From a virus: a DNA stretch of 64,000 nt. Both the position numbers and the translations under genes were made by a program. A model generated the notes under the pieces. The model was not told the DNA's origin and did not search any database. It saw only the letters and a program-made list of their open reading frames with translations. Below, in pieces: positions 1,229-58,728 of the stretch. The DNA lies in the IMG/VR virus record IMGVR_UViG_3300040801_002731, positions 42,504 to 106,503 of that record; one strand, written 5' to 3'. How positions within the stretch are numbered: the stretch's first letter is position 1; every line of letters starts with the position of its first letter.

Positions 1229-1405
1229 TCAATGAGGCCGGGGAGGTCGGAGTCTCCCCGGAAGAGCCGAAGTCAGTTGTTTCGCCGACCTAGCTTGCGC
1301 TTGCTTCAATGAGGCCGAGGCGCCGAAGCACCTCGGAAATGGCCGAAGCCATGAACGACAAGCGCGCTTGCAGGGTTACACTGGCATACCAGGAGAGACG
1401 TGTCA

Positions 1406-2065
1406 ATGCCCCGTCAAGGTCGTCAAGCCCAGACCCTCGATCCCCAGAAACACCTGCCGCTGCTGCTCGCCGAATGCGACAAGAGCCGCTACCCGCACCG
1501 TGATCGAGTGATCGTTCTGCTCTCTCTGCGCGCCGGGCTGCGGCGCATGGAGATCGCCGGCCTGAAACGCCGACACGTCATGGATGCCTCTGGCGGCATC
1601 GGCAGTCACATCAACCTGGAGGACAAAATCTGCAAGCAGGGCTCGGGCGGCCGAGTGCCTATTCACCCCGAACTCCGCGAGGCGTTGGCCGAGCTGCTCC
1701 GAAAGGTGCCGGGACAGCCTCATTGGCCTCTGATTCTGTCGGAGCGTGCCGAGACGGCCGCGACGGGCCGCAGATCGACAGCGGGCGCGTTGACCAGGCC
1801 GGCACCAATGGAGGAGCCCTATCACATGCGGGCCGATGCCGTTGGGTATCTGTTCTGGCGGCTCTACAAGAAGGCGGGGCTGATCGGCTGCTCGTCGCAC
1901 TCTGGCCGCCGCACATTCGGCACCCTGGCGGCGCGGCGCGCCATGAAGACGCCGGGCGGTTCGATCAGGGACGTGCAGGTCCTGCTGCGCCACAAGAACC
2001 TCGCCACGACCCAGAAATACATCGAGGCCAACAGCGAGGTTCACGAGGCGCTGATTGACTTTTGA
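1406..2065 (+). CDS. Tyrosine recombinase, catalytic domain only
   Basis: A 219-residue protein with the tyrosine recombinase catalytic signature. The box I arginine is in LRAGLRRMEIAGL (about R46), the H-x-x-R box is SHSGRRTFGT (about residue 165), and LLRHKNLATTQKYIE carries the late histidine and the nucleophilic tyrosine. The ATG at 1406 has AGGAGAG 8 nt upstream; a GTG at 1400 is too close to that site. The usual N-terminal arm-binding/SAM-like region is almost missing, since family members normally have 300 or more residues. It could resolve plasmid or phage-genome multimers or integrate at low specificity. It converges with the XRE gene, with only 2 nt between stops. Confidence 0.87.
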   Translation: MPRQGRQAQTLDPQKHLPLLLAECDKSRYPHRDRVIVLLSLRAGLRRMEIAGLKRRHVMDASGGIGSHINLEDKICKQGSGGRVPIHPELREALAELLRKVPGQPHWPLILSERAETAATGRRSTAGALTRPAPMEEPYHMRADAVGYLFWRLYKKAGLIGCSSHSGRRTFGTLAARRAMKTPGGSIRDVQVLLRHKNLATTQKYIEANSEVHEALIDF

Positions 2066-5841: not shown

Positions 5842-6912
5842 TCAACGATAAGGGTTTCGCAGGCGCCAACGAACGACCTGAGCCGATGTGACGGGCGCGG
5901 CCTGCCAGATGGCCTGACGCACCACGTCCGGCCTGGCCTCGTTGGGGTCGAGCCCCTTCGGCAGCAGGGCAACTTTGGCACGCAGGCCGATCTTGCCCAA
6001 CAGCAGACCGGCATCCGCCGCTGCGTTCAGCGCGGCGGTCTCCCCGTCCCAACAGAAGACCACCTCCTCCACACCGCGCCGGCGTAGCTCCAGAAACGCG
6101 CCGAGCTGATCCGAACCGCCGCCGGCCGACAGATGCTTGCCGAAGGTGCCGATGGGCACGATATCGCGCAGCTCGGGCTCCCCATCGACGGCGACCTTCA
6201 GCGCCATGACGTCGAAGGCGCCTTCGCCGACCACCACCCGCCTCGTGCGGATCACGTTGTGGCCGTTGTAGAGGAACCGCCCGGTGGCCGGCAGCGTGGC
6301 AGGGAACAGGTATTTCCGGTCGCTCGTGCCGGTGACGTCACGGCCCTGGAAGGTGACCAGCTTGCCGTCGAGATCGAACACCGGGATGATGACCCGCTGC
6401 CCGAAATTCTGACCGCCGCGGCTGCCATCCTCCTTGGTGTAGTTCCACCAGGCGTCCTCGCAGTAGCGCAGGTGAAAGTAGCCGGCCATGTCGGCGTCAA
6501 TGCCTCGCCTTTCCAGATAGACGAGATTCTGCCCCTCGTAGGGCAGAGGGATCGAGGCGGGCAGGTGGATCTTGTCGGGAATCTCCACGGCGGCCGTGGT
6601 GGTGCGCCGCGGGCGCCAGCCCTGCTCGTGCAGGACTTCCCGGATATGCCGGAAGGTTTCGGCGTTGTTCATCCCGGTGTGGTGCTGGATGAACCCCCAT
6701 TTGCTGAAGGTTTCCGAACACACGAAACAGTTACCGAGACCGGTCTCGGCGTTGATGTAGGTGCGCCAGCGGCTGTCGCCGCACGCCGGGCACTCCTTCA
6801 GATTCAACTGTGCGCCGTTCTGACCGGACGTGACCTTGTAGGTTAACCCCTCGCGCTCGGCATAGAACTCCATGTCGAGCCGGTTCAGCATCTCCCTGAG
6901 ATCGTCAGCCAT
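5842..6912 (-). CDS. DNA primase (CHC2 zinc finger plus TOPRIM, T7 gp4 primase-like)
   Basis: 356 residues. The N-terminal zinc ribbon has two CxxC pairs (ECPACGDSRW at about 37-46, NCFVCSE at about 57-63). The TOPRIM domain shows VVVGEGAFDVMAL with the catalytic Glu and VVFCWDGETAALNAA in place of the DxD element. It lacks a helicase domain, unlike T7 gp4; a DnaB-like helicase is encoded separately at 7460-8833. Expected role: RNA primer synthesis on phage DNA. The start ATG overlaps the previous stop (TGATG). Confidence 0.88.
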   Translation of the reverse strand: MADDLREMLNRLDMEFYAEREGLTYKVTSGQNGAQLNLKECPACGDSRWRTYINAETGLGNCFVCSETFSKWGFIQHHTGMNNAETFRHIREVLHEQGWRPRRTTTAAVEIPDKIHLPASIPLPYEGQNLVYLERRGIDADMAGYFHLRYCEDAWWNYTKEDGSRGGQNFGQRVIIPVFDLDGKLVTFQGRDVTGTSDRKYLFPATLPATGRFLYNGHNVIRTRRVVVGEGAFDVMALKVAVDGEPELRDIVPIGTFGKHLSAGGGSDQLGAFLELRRRGVEEVVFCWDGETAALNAAADAGLLLGKIGLRAKVALLPKGLDPNEARPDVVRQAIWQAAPVTSAQVVRWRLRNPYR

Positions 6913-7459: not shown

Positions 7460-8833
7460 TCATTCACGCCCAAGAACCCGCTTGATGAACTTCATCTTGG
7501 AGCGGTCCTGAGAAATGCGCAGCGTGAAGCCATCTTCCGTGTTACGACTGGCCGCAAAGAAAAGCCGAGCTTCGCCCGAGTCCTTTTCTTCCTGGGTTGC
7601 GTTGATCGAAATCACGATGTCGGCGATGCGGATCTTGTTGAAATCTTCCGCAACGTCCGTCATCGACGACGTGACCTTTTTCGCTCCTTCGCGGTTTGTT
7701 TGTGTGGCCGTCAGGAGCGCCAGGTTGTATTCCTGAGCGATGCCGCGCAGATCCACATAGATCGAGCGGAAGTTGGCGATATCGCTGTCGGTGCGGAACT
7801 CCGGCGCCATCAGGTCGGCGTAGTCGACCACCACCAGGTCGAACAGGATGCCCCGTGCCCGGTAGTTCTCCAGCAGCCGGCGCAGCTTCGACGGCTTCAG
7901 AGTGCCCGTCGGATACTCGTGGATCTTCAGCAGACCGGACCTGGCCTTCAGCCGGTCGATCTCTGTCCGCACCTTGTGCGGGCTGTCCTTGAGTGTCTTG
8001 ATGGCCGTGTCCGTAATGTTGGCGTCCAGACGATCGGCGTAGATCGCGGCTGACACCTCAAGGGTCACGATCAGGACGTTGTGCCGCTTGGGGGACAGGG
8101 CCGCGGCCTAGGCGAACTCGCCCAGAGCCAACGACTTGCCGCCTTTGGCCGGACCCATGATCAGCGACAGCTCCCGAAGGCCCCAGCCCCGGTGATAGAG
8201 CAGCGCATCCAGCTCCTCGACCCCGGTGGTAATGCCGGTCGGCACCTTCGTCCCCGACATGATCGAGACTCGCGTTTCCGTGCGACCCTCGATCTGCTCG
8301 AAGAAGTCATAGCCGGTGTCGGCCTCGCCCTCGCCCACCAGCAGGGCCTCGCGCATGGCCTTCTCGATACCCGCGAAGTCGCCCTTCTCCAGACGACCGA
8401 CGCTTTCGATCATGGCCTTCTCAACAGCCCTCTCGCGCGCAAACTCAGCGACCTTCTCGACCGCAAAGGCGCCGCCGGAGATGTCCGCTGCATAGACCGA
8501 TCGCACGGCATCCTTGACCTCGGCCAGAATGTCACTGCGGATCTTCTTGGAGGCGACGGCCTCCTTCAGCAGCACGCCAAGAGCTGCCTTGTCGGGCGGA
8601 GACCGGAACCGGGCGTAATGCCCCCGGATCAGGTCGAACAGCGCGGCCTCGCCGACGTTGGTCAGATAATCGGGCTTGATCAGCCCCTCGGTGCGCGCCA
8701 GGAACGTCGGGTCCCGAAGCGCCAGGGCTACGATCTTGGTCTGGAAATCCTCGTTGAAGCCGTAGGCGACCTCGATTTCTTCGCCGCCAGCCACCTCGTC
8801 TTCGGTTTCGATCTCCGCTGCGACTACCGTCAT
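7460..8833 (-). CDS. DnaB-like replicative helicase interrupted by an in-frame amber codon
   Basis: The frame encodes 457 codons with a single internal TAG at 8110-8108 (codon 242). The first part has a DnaB-type N-terminal region and Walker A (GPAKGGKSLALGEFA), then TAG. The same frame continues AAALSPKRHNVLIVTLEVSAA without any shift, with Walker B LVVVDYADL, the ATQTNR motif and FFAASRNTEDGF. All helicase motifs are present and correctly spaced, so one codon change separates two halves that are useless alone. The start ATG overlaps the preceding stop (ATGA). Options are readthrough or suppression, a real mutation, or a base-call error. TAG also ends normal genes here (terminase, scaffold), so general recoding is unlikely. 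Confidence 0.87.
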
Positions 8834-11028: not shown

Positions 11029-12150
11029 TCAAGCGGCGAGTGCAGATCCGGCAGCGGAGCGCAGCATGTCGAGATGGCGCAGGCCGTCCCGCATGTCCTC
11101 GAAGAACAGGGTGCGCCGGCCGGCGGGGTCATGCACCACCATCGGCACCAGGAACGGTGTGTTCTCCCGGAAGCCTTCCTGCCGGGCATAGCCGTCGATC
11201 AGCTTGTAAGCGCCAAGCTGGACACCCCGGACGGTCCGGCTTTCGCCGGCCCACTTCTTCTGAATCGACAGATGCCCGGCGGTGTGAATGTGACCACCCC
11301 AGAAGACATCCTCGCCCTGCCAGTTCTCCAGCATGTCCACCAGGATGCCGTGAACCTGGTTGTATTTCGAGTGTCCGCGATACTTGTGCCGAACCTTGTG
11401 CAGCCACGATGTGCCGTCCGGGGAGATCAGCTCGACGCGGATTTCGTCGGTGTCGTAGATCGGCCCCAGGCCGGCGTCTTCAAACATCCGCTTGAGCACG
11501 TCGACGCCGCCCAGAGACTTGCTCCAGTCCATGTGATTGCCGCTGATCGCCGCCACCAGCTTCGGCATCAGGGTTGCCACATAATGCTCCAGCAGACGCC
11601 AGGAATCGTCATGGCTCATGATGTCGCCGCGGCGCTCGCGCTCCAGGCGGCCGACGATGAAGTTGTCCAGCCAGTCTCCAACCGCCACGGCGTAGAGCGC
11701 CGGGTGTTGGGCGATCAGATCGGCGTCCTGAAAGACACGGCGCAGGTGTGTGCCCGGATTGTTCAGATGATTGTCCGGCAGACCAACGACGCCAAAGGGG
11801 CCGGGCGTCTTGATCCGCACCTGAACCACATTGCGCGCCCGATGCCAGTCAGCAAGACGGTCGTTCGCCTGACAGGCTCGCTCAATCAGCGTTTCGATGG
11901 GCTCGTCCGGGTCCGGCAGCGACGTCGCAATGTCCCGGAACTGCTCGCCAACCGGGCGTGTCAGATTGGCCCTTGAGACCAGCTCGGGGATGCTGCCATC
12001 GCCTCGTCGCAGCCGGCGAATGATGGCGGCCTGGTTCTTGACTGTCTTGTGGGCCACGCCAAGCTCGCGCGCGACGTCGCTGAGGGTCGGGTAGGCCGCG
12101 ACGTCATTGTAGACCTTGGCGAATCTCGTGATCGTGTCCGGCGTCATCAT
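11029..12150 (-). CDS. Calcineurin-like metallophosphoesterase with N-terminal HTH
   Basis: 373 residues from the ATG at 12150; a TTG 6 nt upstream is an alternative. Residues about 1-50 look like a helix-turn-helix (YPTLSDVARELGVAHKTVKNQAAIIRRL). The phosphoesterase motifs follow: GLPDNHLN (D-x-H), VGDWLDN (GD), AISGNHMDW (GNH), HKYRGHSK and WGGHIHTAGH (GHxH). The family hydrolyses phosphodiesters or monoesters with two metal ions. Similar HTH-phosphatase proteins are seen in tailed phages; the substrate is unknown. It lies between the lysis genes and a strong terminator. Confidence 0.85.
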   Translation of the reverse strand: MMTPDTITRFAKVYNDVAAYPTLSDVARELGVAHKTVKNQAAIIRRLRRGDGSIPELVSRANLTRPVGEQFRDIATSLPDPDEPIETLIERACQANDRLADWHRARNVVQVRIKTPGPFGVVGLPDNHLNNPGTHLRRVFQDADLIAQHPALYAVAVGDWLDNFIVGRLERERRGDIMSHDDSWRLLEHYVATLMPKLVAAISGNHMDWSKSLGGVDVLKRMFEDAGLGPIYDTDEIRVELISPDGTSWLHKVRHKYRGHSKYNQVHGILVDMLENWQGEDVFWGGHIHTAGHLSIQKKWAGESRTVRGVQLGAYKLIDGYARQEGFRENTPFLVPMVVHDPAGRRTLFFEDMRDGLRHLDMLRSAAGSALAA

Positions 12151-12194
12151 TTCCAAGTCCGCGCTCTGTTATATATAATATATAATAAATAATA

Positions 12195-45786: not shown

Positions 45787-45914
45787 GCGACGGTCCCCTC
45801 ATTCTCGAAGACGATGCCGAGAGGGCCAAGCCAGAAGATGCGCTCGTCCGGCTCGTCGCTGGCCGTCCAGCCGATCGACCAGTGCGAGAGGCACCATGCA
45901 AATCCGATGATCAT
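45783..45914 (-). CDS. Small coupled protein (43 residues)
   Basis: It reads MIIGFAWCLSHWSIGWT, then ASDEPDERIFWLGPLGIVFENEGTVA. The ATG overlaps the upstream stop (ATGA) and its stop overlaps the ABC start (GTGA), so it is embedded between two coupled genes, which argues that it is real. The Trp-rich, partly hydrophobic N-terminal half could be a membrane or partner-binding segment. Confidence 0.68.
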   Translation of the reverse strand: MIIGFAWCLSHWSIGWTASDEPDERIFWLGPLGIVFENEGTVA

Positions 45915-53589: not shown

Positions 53590-53675
53590 TCCGGGTGGCG
53601 GGAGTCGAACCCGCACACTCTCTTTGAGCATCCGATTTTTAAGATCGGCGCGTCTACCAATTCCGCCACACCCGG
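53590..53675 (-). tRNA. tRNA-Leu (anticodon UAA)
   Basis: On the minus strand the acceptor stem is CCGGGTG/CACCCGG, the D-arm GCGGAATTGGTAGACGCGCC, the anticodon stem CCGAT/ATCGG with loop CTTAAAA (anticodon TAA), then a long class II variable arm and the T-arm GCGGGTTCGACTCCCGC. The discriminator is A; no CCA is encoded. It decodes UUA, a codon rare in GC-rich genomes. It is not an amber suppressor. Confidence 0.93.
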
Positions 53676-53835: not shown

Positions 53836-56800
53836 ATGCAGTTAGGCGAGATTTTAGAGAACTACCGCACCGCCTCGACCAACGAGCGCGAGAAGGGTGA
53901 ATATTTCGAGCGCTTGGTTCGCGTGTTCATCACCAATGATGACATCCAGAAGCAGTTCTACTCCGCCGTCGTCCCCTTCGCTGAATGGGCAAAGCAACAG
54001 GGCTGGAGCAATGCGGACACCGGGATCGACCTGGTGGCCACCCTTGCGGACGGGTCGGGGTATGCGGCCATCCAATGCAAGTTCTACGCCCCCAACCATG
54101 TGATCCAGAAGCCCGACATCGACAGCTTCATTTCTGCGGCCTCGAATGACCTCTTCACCCGCCTGATCATCGCGGACACCACCCGGAAGGACTTCGGGCG
54201 CAACACCAAGGAAACCCTGGACAAGCTCTCGAAGGACTGGAACCGGATCGGTATCAATGAGCTTGAGGCCAGCCGGATCGACTGGTCGCAATTCATCCGC
54301 ACCGGCAACGTCACCCTGGCCCCCAAGAAGCAGCTTCGGGATCACCAGCGGGATGCGCTGACAGCCGTCACGGAAGGTCTGGCTGAGGCAGATCGCGGCA
54401 AGCTCATCATGGCTTGCGGAACCGGCAAGACCTTCACCGCCCTGCGGGTCGCCGAGACCATAGCAGGCAAAGGCAAGCACGCGCTCTTCATGGTCCCGTC
54501 GCTGGCGCTGATGTCTCAGACCGTGCGCGAGTGGAAGAACGACTGTCAGGAAGAGTTCACGGCCTTCTCAGCCTGTTCGGACATCAAAGTCGGGCGCAAC
54601 GCCGATGCCGATAGCCTTGATCTGAATGTCCATGACCTCGCCTTCCCGGCCACGACAGACCCGGAAAAACTGGCCCGCCAGGTCAAGGATGCGCCTGCGG
54701 ACAAGATGACAGTGGTCTTCTCGACCTATCATTCCATCGACGTTCTGACGCGCGCGCAAAAGAACCACGGCCTGCCCGAGTTCGATCTGGTGATCTGCGA
54801 CGAGGCGCACCGGACCACAGGCGTTACCCTGAAGGATGAGGATGACAGCAACTTCGTCCGCATCCACAACAACGACTATGTGAAGGCTCGAAAGCGCCTC
54901 TACATGACGGCCACCCCCCGCATTTTTGGGGACGCTGCGCGCCGCAAGGCCGATGACCATGAGGCCGAGCTGGCCTCGATGGATGACGAGACCAAGTTTG
55001 GCAAAGACCTGTTCCACCGGGGATTTGGCTGGGCCGTCGAGAATGAACTGCTGACCGACTACAAGGTCGTGGTGCTCGCCGTGGATGAGGGGCTGATTTC
55101 CAGCACCATTCAGAGCCGCCTCAAGGAAGGCGCGGAACTGACCCTGGACGACGCCACCAAGATCATCGGATGTTACAAGGCCCTGACCAAGAGTGACCTC
55201 AAGGGCGATCTGACCTTCGATCCGCAGCCCATGAAGCGCGCGCTGGCCTTCTGCCATAGCATCAAGAAGTCTCTGGTGATCAAAGAGGAGTTTACCCGCG
55301 TTGTCGATGAATACACCGGCAACGACTTCTTCGGTGACGCGGCGCCTCTGCACACTGAGGTGCGCCATATTGACGGCAGCTTCAACTCCAGCGCCCGAGA
55401 AGAAATGCTGAACTGGCTCAAGGCCGATGCAGGCGATGATACCTGCCGCATCCTGACCAACGCCAAGGTATTGTCCGAGGGCGTGGACGTGCCGGCCCTC
55501 GACGCCATCATGTTCATGCACCCACGCAAGAGTCAGATCGACGTGGTGCAATCTGTGGGGCGCGTCATGCGCCGTGCGGAAGGCAAGAAGCTCGGCTATG
55601 TGATCCTGCCAGTGGCTATCCCGCCCAACACAAAGCCCGAGGACGCCCTGAACGACAACGAGCGGTATCAGGTTGTCTGGCAAATCCTGAACGCGCTCCG
55701 TGCCCATGACGAACGCCTCGACGCTCGCATCAACCAGGCCGAACTGGGCGAGGATATCAGCGACAAGATCGAGCTGGTGCGCATCTCATCCAATACAGAG
55801 CTGAGAGAGCTGACCGCTGTGGTCGATGACTTCGCCACGAGCAAGACCAAGGCCGAGAAGACGGGCGCAGGCATTGGGCAGGAGAGCCGAGAGCGGCGGA
55901 CCTATGGCGAGCCGGATGCTCAAGGGTCTTTCGTCTTCGACGAGTTCACCCGCGCCATCATGGCCAAGATCGTCCAGAAGTGCGGAACCCGCGAATACTG
56001 GGATTCTTGGGCCAGAGACATCGCCAAGATTGCCCAGACACATATCACGCGCATCACCACCATCGTCGGCCAGCCGGGGGCTGAACGAGACGCCTTCCTC
56101 GCCTTCCTCGAAGAGCTACAGGACGACCTGAACCCCTCGATCACCGAGGCCGAGGCCATCGAGATGCTGGCGCAGCACCTCATCACGCGCCCGGTCTTTG
56201 ACGCTCTGTTCAAGGGCAGCCAGTTCACCAGAGCGAACCCCGTCTCGTGTGCGATGGAGACGGTGCTTGGGCAACTCCACCAACACAATCTCGCCAAAGA
56301 GGCGGAGAGCCTCGCCAAGTTCTACGCCAGCGTCGAACGCCGCGCTGCCGATGTGGTGACAGCCCACGGGCGGCAGGAGCTGATCTACAAGCTCTATGAC
56401 AGCTTCTTCAAAGGGGCCTTTCCGGTTCTGACGCAGCGGCTTGGCATCGTCTACACGCCGGTCGAGGTGGTGGATTTCATCATCCATTCGGTCAATGACG
56501 TGTTGAAGGCGCAGTTCGGCCAGACCCTCGGGGCCGAGGGTGTTCATATCCTCGACCCCTTCACCGGCACCGGCACCTTCATCACCCGGCTACTGCAATC
56601 TGGTCTGATCGCGCGCGAAGAGCTGGCGCACAAATACCGGAAGGAAATCCACGCCAACGAGATCGTCCTGCTGGCCTATTACATCGCCGCCATCAACATC
56701 GAGACGGTCTATCACGAGCTGATGCAGGGCGCGCTGTCGGAGGACGCGCCCTATGAACCCTTCAAAGGCATCCTGCTGACCGACACCTTCCAGATGTATG

Positions 56801-58728
56801 AGCAGGAGCGCGACATGGTGGCGAACCTGCTGCCGGACAACTCCGAGCGCCGGACGCACCAGAAGGCACTGGACATCCGCGTCATCATCGGCAACCCGCC
56901 CTATTCGGCGGGGCAGGGCAGCGCCAACGACAATGCTGCGAACCTTGCCTATCCACGACTAGATGCCGCCATCCGCGACAGCTACGTCGCGCACTCCACC
57001 GCCACTCTCAAGAATTCTCTCTATGACAGCTACATCCGGGCGATCCGATGGGCGTCGGACCGGATCGGTGATGCAGGTGTCATGGCCTATGTCACCAATG
57101 CAGGCTGGGTGGACGGTAACGCCACCGACGGCCTTCGTAAATGTCTGGCGGACGAGTTCAGCGACCTCTATGTGTTCCATCTTCGGGGCAACCAGCGCAC
57201 TTCTGGCGAGTTGTCTCGCAAGGAAGGCGGCAAGATTTTTGGCTCTGGCAGCCGCGCGCCGATTGCGATCTCTGTTTTCGTCAAGAATCCCGCGGCCACC
57301 GAGCATGGGCGCATCCATTTCCACGACATCGGCGATTATCTCGACCGGAAGCAAAAGCTGGCGATTGTGCGAGATTTCGCATCTATCGACGGCATCACCG
57401 CCGCCAAGGGTTGGCAGCGCATCGCCCCCGACGAGAACAACGACTGGCTGGACCAAGTGGATCGGAGTTTTGACAGCTTTATACCAATCGGGAACAAGTC
57501 AAATGGGGAAGAGAAATCTGTTTTCTATAATTACTACAATGGTATAAAGACGGGTCGGGACGTCTGGTGCTTCAATTCATCTGCAACCCGTGGTTTTGAA
57601 AACGCTTGTCGCATGATCGACGTCTACGAGCGTGAAAGGCAACGGTATGCCGAGAGTGATGGAAACCAAGACGTCGAAGACTTCGTTGACAGTGACCCGC
57701 GCCAAATAAGCTGGAACAGGATTGCCCGGCAGAAGCTTGCGCGTAATATCTCCCTGCGCCACCAAGACGTGCGGGCTTTTCAAAACATATATCGGCCATT
57801 CTCGCCACAGCAAGCAAACCTGCTTCTTGAGATCAGCGATCTCGTAACACTGTTCAGGCGGGCTTTCCCGACGGGTGGTCAAGACAACCTTGTGATTGAT
57901 GTGTCGGGCGTTGGTTCAAAGTCTTTCACATCGCTGATGTTCAGTCGCCCGCCAAGCTTCGATGCGGTGGAAAAAGGCCAATGCTTTCCCCTCTACCTCT
58001 ACGAAGAAACCCAACCCGATGAGGGCCTCTTCGCCACAGGTGGAGATCAGGCAAGCGGCCTGACCCGACGCGACGCCATCACCGATGCAGGTCTCGCCCA
58101 TTTCCAAGCCTCCTATCCGGGGCAGGAGATCACCAAGGAAGACCTGTTCTATTACATCTACGGTCTGCTCCACTCCCCCGAATACCGCGACCGCTATGCC
58201 AACAACCTCGCCAAAGCCCTGCCACGCATCCCGGCAGTCCGCACCTATCATGACTTCGCCGCCTTCCGTGACGCAGGCCGCGCCCTGGGCGATCTGCATG
58301 TGAACTTTGAGTCCGTCGCGCCCTACATGGTGACCTTCAAGGAAGGCGATCACGCCCTCATCAACGAGGCGCAGGATGACCCCGTGAAGTTCTACCGCGT
58401 CACCAAGATGAAGTTCGGCGGCAAGGGCAAGGGGAAGGACAAGACCACCGTCATCTACAACGGCAACATCACCATGCAGAACATTCCGCTGGAAGCCTAT
58501 GACTATGTAGTCAACGGCAAACCTGCGCTGGAATGGGTGATGGAACGGCAGGTGGTGAAGCAGGACAAGGACAGCGGCATTGTGAACGACGCGAACGATT
58601 ACGCCAACGAGACGGTGGGCGATCCGCGCTATCCGCTCGATCTATTCCGCCGCGTGATCACCGTGAGCCTGGAGACCATGCGGATCGTGAACAGCCTCCC
58701 AGCACTCGACATTGAAGACCCAAAGTGA
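53836..58728 (+). CDS. Single-chain restriction-modification enzyme (type ISP/LlaGI-like)
   Basis: 1630 residues combining all R-M activities. The nuclease at the N-terminus is Mrr-like (DTGIDLVATLADGSGYAAIQCKFYA, about 58-82, with D and QxK). The SF2 translocase has LIMACGTGKTFTAL (about 190), ICDEAHRTTG (about 320), MTATPRIF and QSVGRVMRRAEGKKLGYVI. The N6-adenine methylase has LDPFTGTGTFITRLL (about 910) and VIIGNPPYSAGQ (about 1020). The rest is a target-recognition region. Type ISP enzymes translocate and cleave between head-to-head sites. No other R-M gene is adjacent, consistent with a one-protein system. It probably protects the lysogen against other phages. Confidence 0.92.
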   Translation: MQLGEILENYRTASTNEREKGEYFERLVRVFITNDDIQKQFYSAVVPFAEWAKQQGWSNADTGIDLVATLADGSGYAAIQCKFYAPNHVIQKPDIDSFISAASNDLFTRLIIADTTRKDFGRNTKETLDKLSKDWNRIGINELEASRIDWSQFIRTGNVTLAPKKQLRDHQRDALTAVTEGLAEADRGKLIMACGTGKTFTALRVAETIAGKGKHALFMVPSLALMSQTVREWKNDCQEEFTAFSACSDIKVGRNADADSLDLNVHDLAFPATTDPEKLARQVKDAPADKMTVVFSTYHSIDVLTRAQKNHGLPEFDLVICDEAHRTTGVTLKDEDDSNFVRIHNNDYVKARKRLYMTATPRIFGDAARRKADDHEAELASMDDETKFGKDLFHRGFGWAVENELLTDYKVVVLAVDEGLISSTIQSRLKEGAELTLDDATKIIGCYKALTKSDLKGDLTFDPQPMKRALAFCHSIKKSLVIKEEFTRVVDEYTGNDFFGDAAPLHTEVRHIDGSFNSSAREEMLNWLKADAGDDTCRILTNAKVLSEGVDVPALDAIMFMHPRKSQIDVVQSVGRVMRRAEGKKLGYVILPVAIPPNTKPEDALNDNERYQVVWQILNALRAHDERLDARINQAELGEDISDKIELVRISSNTELRELTAVVDDFATSKTKAEKTGAGIGQESRERRTYGEPDAQGSFVFDEFTRAIMAKIVQKCGTREYWDSWARDIAKIAQTHITRITTIVGQPGAERDAFLAFLEELQDDLNPSITEAEAIEMLAQHLITRPVFDALFKGSQFTRANPVSCAMETVLGQLHQHNLAKEAESLAKFYASVERRAADVVTAHGRQELIYKLYDSFFKGAFPVLTQRLGIVYTPVEVVDFIIHSVNDVLKAQFGQTLGAEGVHILDPFTGTGTFITRLLQSGLIAREELAHKYRKEIHANEIVLLAYYIAAINIETVYHELMQGALSEDAPYEPFKGILLTDTFQMYEQERDMVANLLPDNSERRTHQKALDIRVIIGNPPYSAGQGSANDNAANLAYPRLDAAIRDSYVAHSTATLKNSLYDSYIRAIRWASDRIGDAGVMAYVTNAGWVDGNATDGLRKCLADEFSDLYVFHLRGNQRTSGELSRKEGGKIFGSGSRAPIAISVFVKNPAATEHGRIHFHDIGDYLDRKQKLAIVRDFASIDGITAAKGWQRIAPDENNDWLDQVDRSFDSFIPIGNKSNGEEKSVFYNYYNGIKTGRDVWCFNSSATRGFENACRMIDVYERERQRYAESDGNQDVEDFVDSDPRQISWNRIARQKLARNISLRHQDVRAFQNIYRPFSPQQANLLLEISDLVTLFRRAFPTGGQDNLVIDVSGVGSKSFTSLMFSRPPSFDAVEKGQCFPLYLYEETQPDEGLFATGGDQASGLTRRDAITDAGLAHFQASYPGQEITKEDLFYYIYGLLHSPEYRDRYANNLAKALPRIPAVRTYHDFAAFRDAGRALGDLHVNFESVAPYMVTFKEGDHALINEAQDDPVKFYRVTKMKFGGKGKGKDKTTVIYNGNITMQNIPLEAYDYVVNGKPALEWVMERQVVKQDKDSGIVNDANDYANETVGDPRYPLDLFRRVITVSLETMRIVNSLPALDIEDPK

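Follow-up and report, generated by a model that had tools for sequence, protein, structure and literature searches.

The DnaB-like replicative helicase gene of an SSU5/RHEph10-like phage, probably a phage-plasmid, is broken by one in-frame TAG, which in our view is probably an isolated and very recent amber nonsense mutation of the sequenced copy. The analysed window, i.e., the whole stretch of 64,000 nucleotides to which all positions refer, corresponds to bases 42504-106503 of a virus record of 106,503 bases. The G+C content of the record is 61%, and no end repeats were found and no ambiguous bases were seen in it. A gene appears truncated at the left end of the record, which is therefore probably slightly short of complete.

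The helicase gene (7460-8833, minus strand) comprises 457 codons and is interrupted at codon 242 (8108-8110), which reads CTA on the plus strand and TAG on the minus strand, in the context GAG TTC GCC TAG GCC GCG. The minus-strand frame running from 8833 to 7460 thus encodes 241 amino acids, the TAG, another 215 amino acids and finally a TGA terminator. The lone in-frame TAG noticed in the sequence-only reading is thus confirmed in the record sequence, and the frame stays open without a shift for 215 codons beyond it. The stop is the eighth codon after the serine of the Walker A motif GPAKGGKS (residues 227-234), in agreement with its reported placement just past this motif, and the predicted truncated product (8111-8833, minus strand; 241 amino acids) contains the N-terminal domain and Walker A only. 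The 215 codons located 3' of the stop (7460-8107, minus strand) are conserved, and the Walker B (VVVDYAD), TATQTNR and FAASRN motifs are all intact, as had been claimed. The read-through frame matches both Pfam DnaB_C (1e-13) and phrog_19, DnaB-like replicative helicase (2.3e-77), each match spanning codon 242. A profile match and the motifs of the RecA core, which together define membership in the DnaB-like helicase family, are thus both present, while the frame is not open throughout, as the product would require for activity, though not for homology. Broken in this copy and intact in relatives, the gene is a candidate pseudogene by nonsense mutation. No second DnaB that might serve as a back-up was found in the record.

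Homologs of the helicase were identified in 127 fetched loci, none of which has a stop inside the aligned helicase frame (0/127; the loci include the same contig fetched twice, and the independent relatives are somewhat fewer, 48 after dereplication), so the interrupted frame is not a chance open reading frame effect. Intact copies are carried by eight genomes. The nearest relative, which is intact and 74% identical, is encoded by a 96 kb contig of Roseospira marina, and the next ones by contigs of approximately 109-118 kb of Magnetospirillum, Faunimonas, Phyllobacterium, Ancylobacter and Paracoccus. Further relatives occur in Rhizobium phage RHEph10, in SSU5 and in numerous circular plasmids, including those of Methylobacterium and Acinetobacter. 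Among the records visible to the searches, which may not include very close ones, neither a near-identical record nor an independent isolate with either codon was found. Only two helicases with broken frames were present among the fetched relatives. The helicase of plasmid p5736 of Acinetobacter baumannii (locus L109, 1501-2903) contains a one-base frameshift some eight codons past Walker A, and its two halves are annotated as separate hypothetical proteins. The chromosomal relative of Halomonas sulfidaeris (locus L107, 10001-11306) is split into three frame pieces and is a decayed or badly sequenced copy. With two cases, the position of the Acinetobacter break at nearly the same residue as the TAG is best taken as a coincidence.

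In an alignment of 48 dereplicated helicases, all 65 near-invariant columns are kept in the interrupted copy. Codon 242 itself falls in a variable column, occupied in relatives by K, I, R, V or Q, with Q in the nearest one. The dN/dS ratio calculated against the nearest relative is 0.30 (0.272/0.920) for the part located 5' of the stop and 0.14 (0.146/1.052) for the part located 3' of it, although this relative is distant (dS of about 1) and these values therefore bound the age of the stop only loosely. The frame past the TAG looks to be under purifying selection, and the gene contains no further stop or frameshift. Given the retention of the 65 near-invariant positions, this apparent selection and the lack of a second lesion, the stop appears to be young relative to the split from the Roseospira element, within the same loose bound. 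The stop also creates the only CCTAGG sequence of the record and one of its just 17 CTAG sites, compared with about 82 expected from a Markov estimate. CTAG is thus strongly depleted record-wide, and less so in the Roseospira element (49 observed vs. 75 expected).

The record shares replication, head and tail genes with SSU5/RHEph10-like phages, and 82 of its gene segments are conserved in the Roseospira element. Its kin are contigs of approximately 96-118 kb in Proteobacteria isolates, as well as circular plasmids. The terminase, portal, capsid, tape-measure and primase genes are intact, the last of these (TOPRIM DNA primase; 5842-6912, minus strand) being located two genes downstream of the helicase. 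The record also encodes ParA and two ParB-like proteins, and a phage-plasmid life style is likely. The DnaB-like helicase near a TOPRIM primase, the size of approximately 106 kb and the ParA/ParB, terminase, portal, capsid and tape-measure genes are features common to SSU5/RHEph10-like phages and phage-plasmids (pCAV, pKpn, pMT1, pSLy3, SSU5_pHCM2 and AB_1 types). The record differs from them in the TAG-interrupted helicase, whose nearest relative is just 74% identical, in the presence of a type ISP restriction-modification gene and in the apparent lack of a RepC protein: RHEph10 carries RepC and ParA, but no homolog of this RepC was found in the record, nor was a gene for plasmid replication identified, which weighs against the preferred reading. 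The type ISP enzyme (53836-58728, plus strand; 1630 amino acids) is composed of an Mrr-like nuclease, a helicase, a methylase and an ISP specificity domain. Its gene adjoins tRNA-Leu(UAA) (53590-53675) in a stretch without a counterpart in the Roseospira element, which is probable cargo with a defence role. Two other genes were distinguished in the window. One encodes a small tyrosine recombinase (Phage_integrase; 1400-2065, plus strand), which is 80% identical in the Roseospira element, has its neighbours on the opposite strand and is possibly a dimer resolvase. The other is an open reading frame of 375 amino acids (11029-12156, minus strand), placed between the PhoH gene and the lysis genes and matching the DNA repair exonuclease family phrog_7339.

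The meaning of TAG in this element was analysed in all 90 gene segments (21,468 codons) conserved between the record and two relatives, the Roseospira element and RHEph10. Across 82-90 conserved segments with about 21,500 codons, the helicase TAG is the sole genuine premature stop, and no frameshifts were found in the other conserved genes of the record. A candidate second disrupted gene, with a TGA at 45801, was rejected, as the frame of the relative had been extended too far upstream, beyond the true gene start, and most other apparent interior stops were antisense shadow frames. Terminators of 88 conserved genes are TGA (59), TAA (18) and TAG (11), several of the TAG terminators being located at the same point as in the genes of relatives. 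The earlier statement that TAG is an ordinary stop elsewhere is thereby borne out, and the claim that Leu(UAA) is the sole tRNA extends from the window to the whole 106.5 kb record, which may itself be slightly incomplete. A CUA suppressor tRNA was found neither in the window nor in the record.

These results bear directly on one alternative, a reassignment of TAG to glutamine as in code-15 phages (e.g., crAss-like phages), with which the record shares an in-frame TAG in a replication gene (PMC11210395) and which would agree with the glutamine found at the codon 242 site in the nearest relative. A code-15 phage would be expected to have TAG inside many genes and not as a terminator, together with a phage-encoded CUA suppressor tRNA. 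In recoded phages coding capacity and gene length drop greatly under code 11 (PMC11210395), but here code 11 leaves the conserved genes open along their whole length. With a single interior TAG, TAG ending 11 of the 88 conserved genes and Leu(UAA) as the only tRNA, reassignment is excluded. The main rival to a recent nonsense allele is an error of base calling, amplification or consensus, or a minor-variant base in the consensus, the real population having a sense codon. This explanation is possible, albeit clearly the less likely of the two; it would account for a single-base event in a gene and record that are otherwise perfect, with nothing else decayed, and no independent copy confirms the TAG. 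The unique CCTAGG and the rarity of CTAG would suit an erroneous base as well as a very young change. What speaks against an error is the clean state of the record, i.e., no ambiguous bases seen and no frameshifts in conserved genes, and the a priori rarity of such an outcome, as only 120 of the 4,104 possible single-base changes of the helicase gene (2.9%) create a stop.

The sequence-only reading had proposed either very recent decay or readthrough, and the two parts fared differently. Recency is supported by the single lesion in the record, the kept conserved sites and the purifying selection apparent 3' of the stop. Readthrough, in which a real TAG would be translated by a host amber suppressor tRNA or through leaky termination to yield some full-length helicase with low-level function, is unlikely. 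The variable column at codon 242 would accept many inserted residues, the frame past the TAG is conserved and apparently selected, and in-frame stops with dN/dS below 1 were reported to be widespread across bacteria (PMC7918605). The conserved downstream frame nevertheless does not favour readthrough, because recency alone would give the same picture. Moreover, the record encodes no suppressor tRNA, no Rfam element was found near the TAG, RNA folding 3' of the stop is not unusual (z = -0.9), and the stop is common to no relative. Even less credence is given to an amber switch, by which a host suppressor or leaky termination would supply a little full-length helicase and phage replication would hinge on how the host reads TAG. 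It is highly improbable that the helicase works as a pair of polypeptides, with translation of the second one initiated at an internal GTG. The first in-frame start codons past the TAG are indeed GTGs, 14 and 18 codons from it (8068 and 8056), and the frameshift of the Acinetobacter plasmid lies at nearly the same place, but no obvious ribosome-binding site precedes either GTG, the gene is interrupted within the RecA-like core, after Walker A and ahead of Walker B, and the fetched relatives are uninterrupted except for the two frame-broken ones.

Under the preferred interpretation, a recent nonsense allele, translation would end at residue 241, right past Walker A, and the sequenced copy would not supply a working replicative helicase; the element is otherwise intact. 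Such an allele may persist for a short time, since the helicase would serve the replication of the phage itself and is likely dispensable in the resident plasmid state; alternatively, intact copies in the same population may complement the broken gene. The frameshifted helicase of the Acinetobacter plasmid and the disrupted Halomonas copy, i.e., broken helicases elsewhere in such elements, are consistent with this interpretation. Phage-plasmids are known to turn defective via loss-of-function mutations (PMC12977533). The disruption of a phage gene in a phage-plasmid-like element is the feature in common with them; they accumulate such mutations, whereas here there is a single lesion, and neither the structural genes nor the other replication genes are disrupted.

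An in-frame stop that stands alone in an assembled viral record gives no evidence for recoding. Readthrough, if true, would be a clean case of host-dependent control over a phage replication helicase. Most likely, the helicase TAG represents an ordinary case and not a special reading of the genetic code, and would be a further example of a transient nonsense allele carried by a mobile element, of little consequence.
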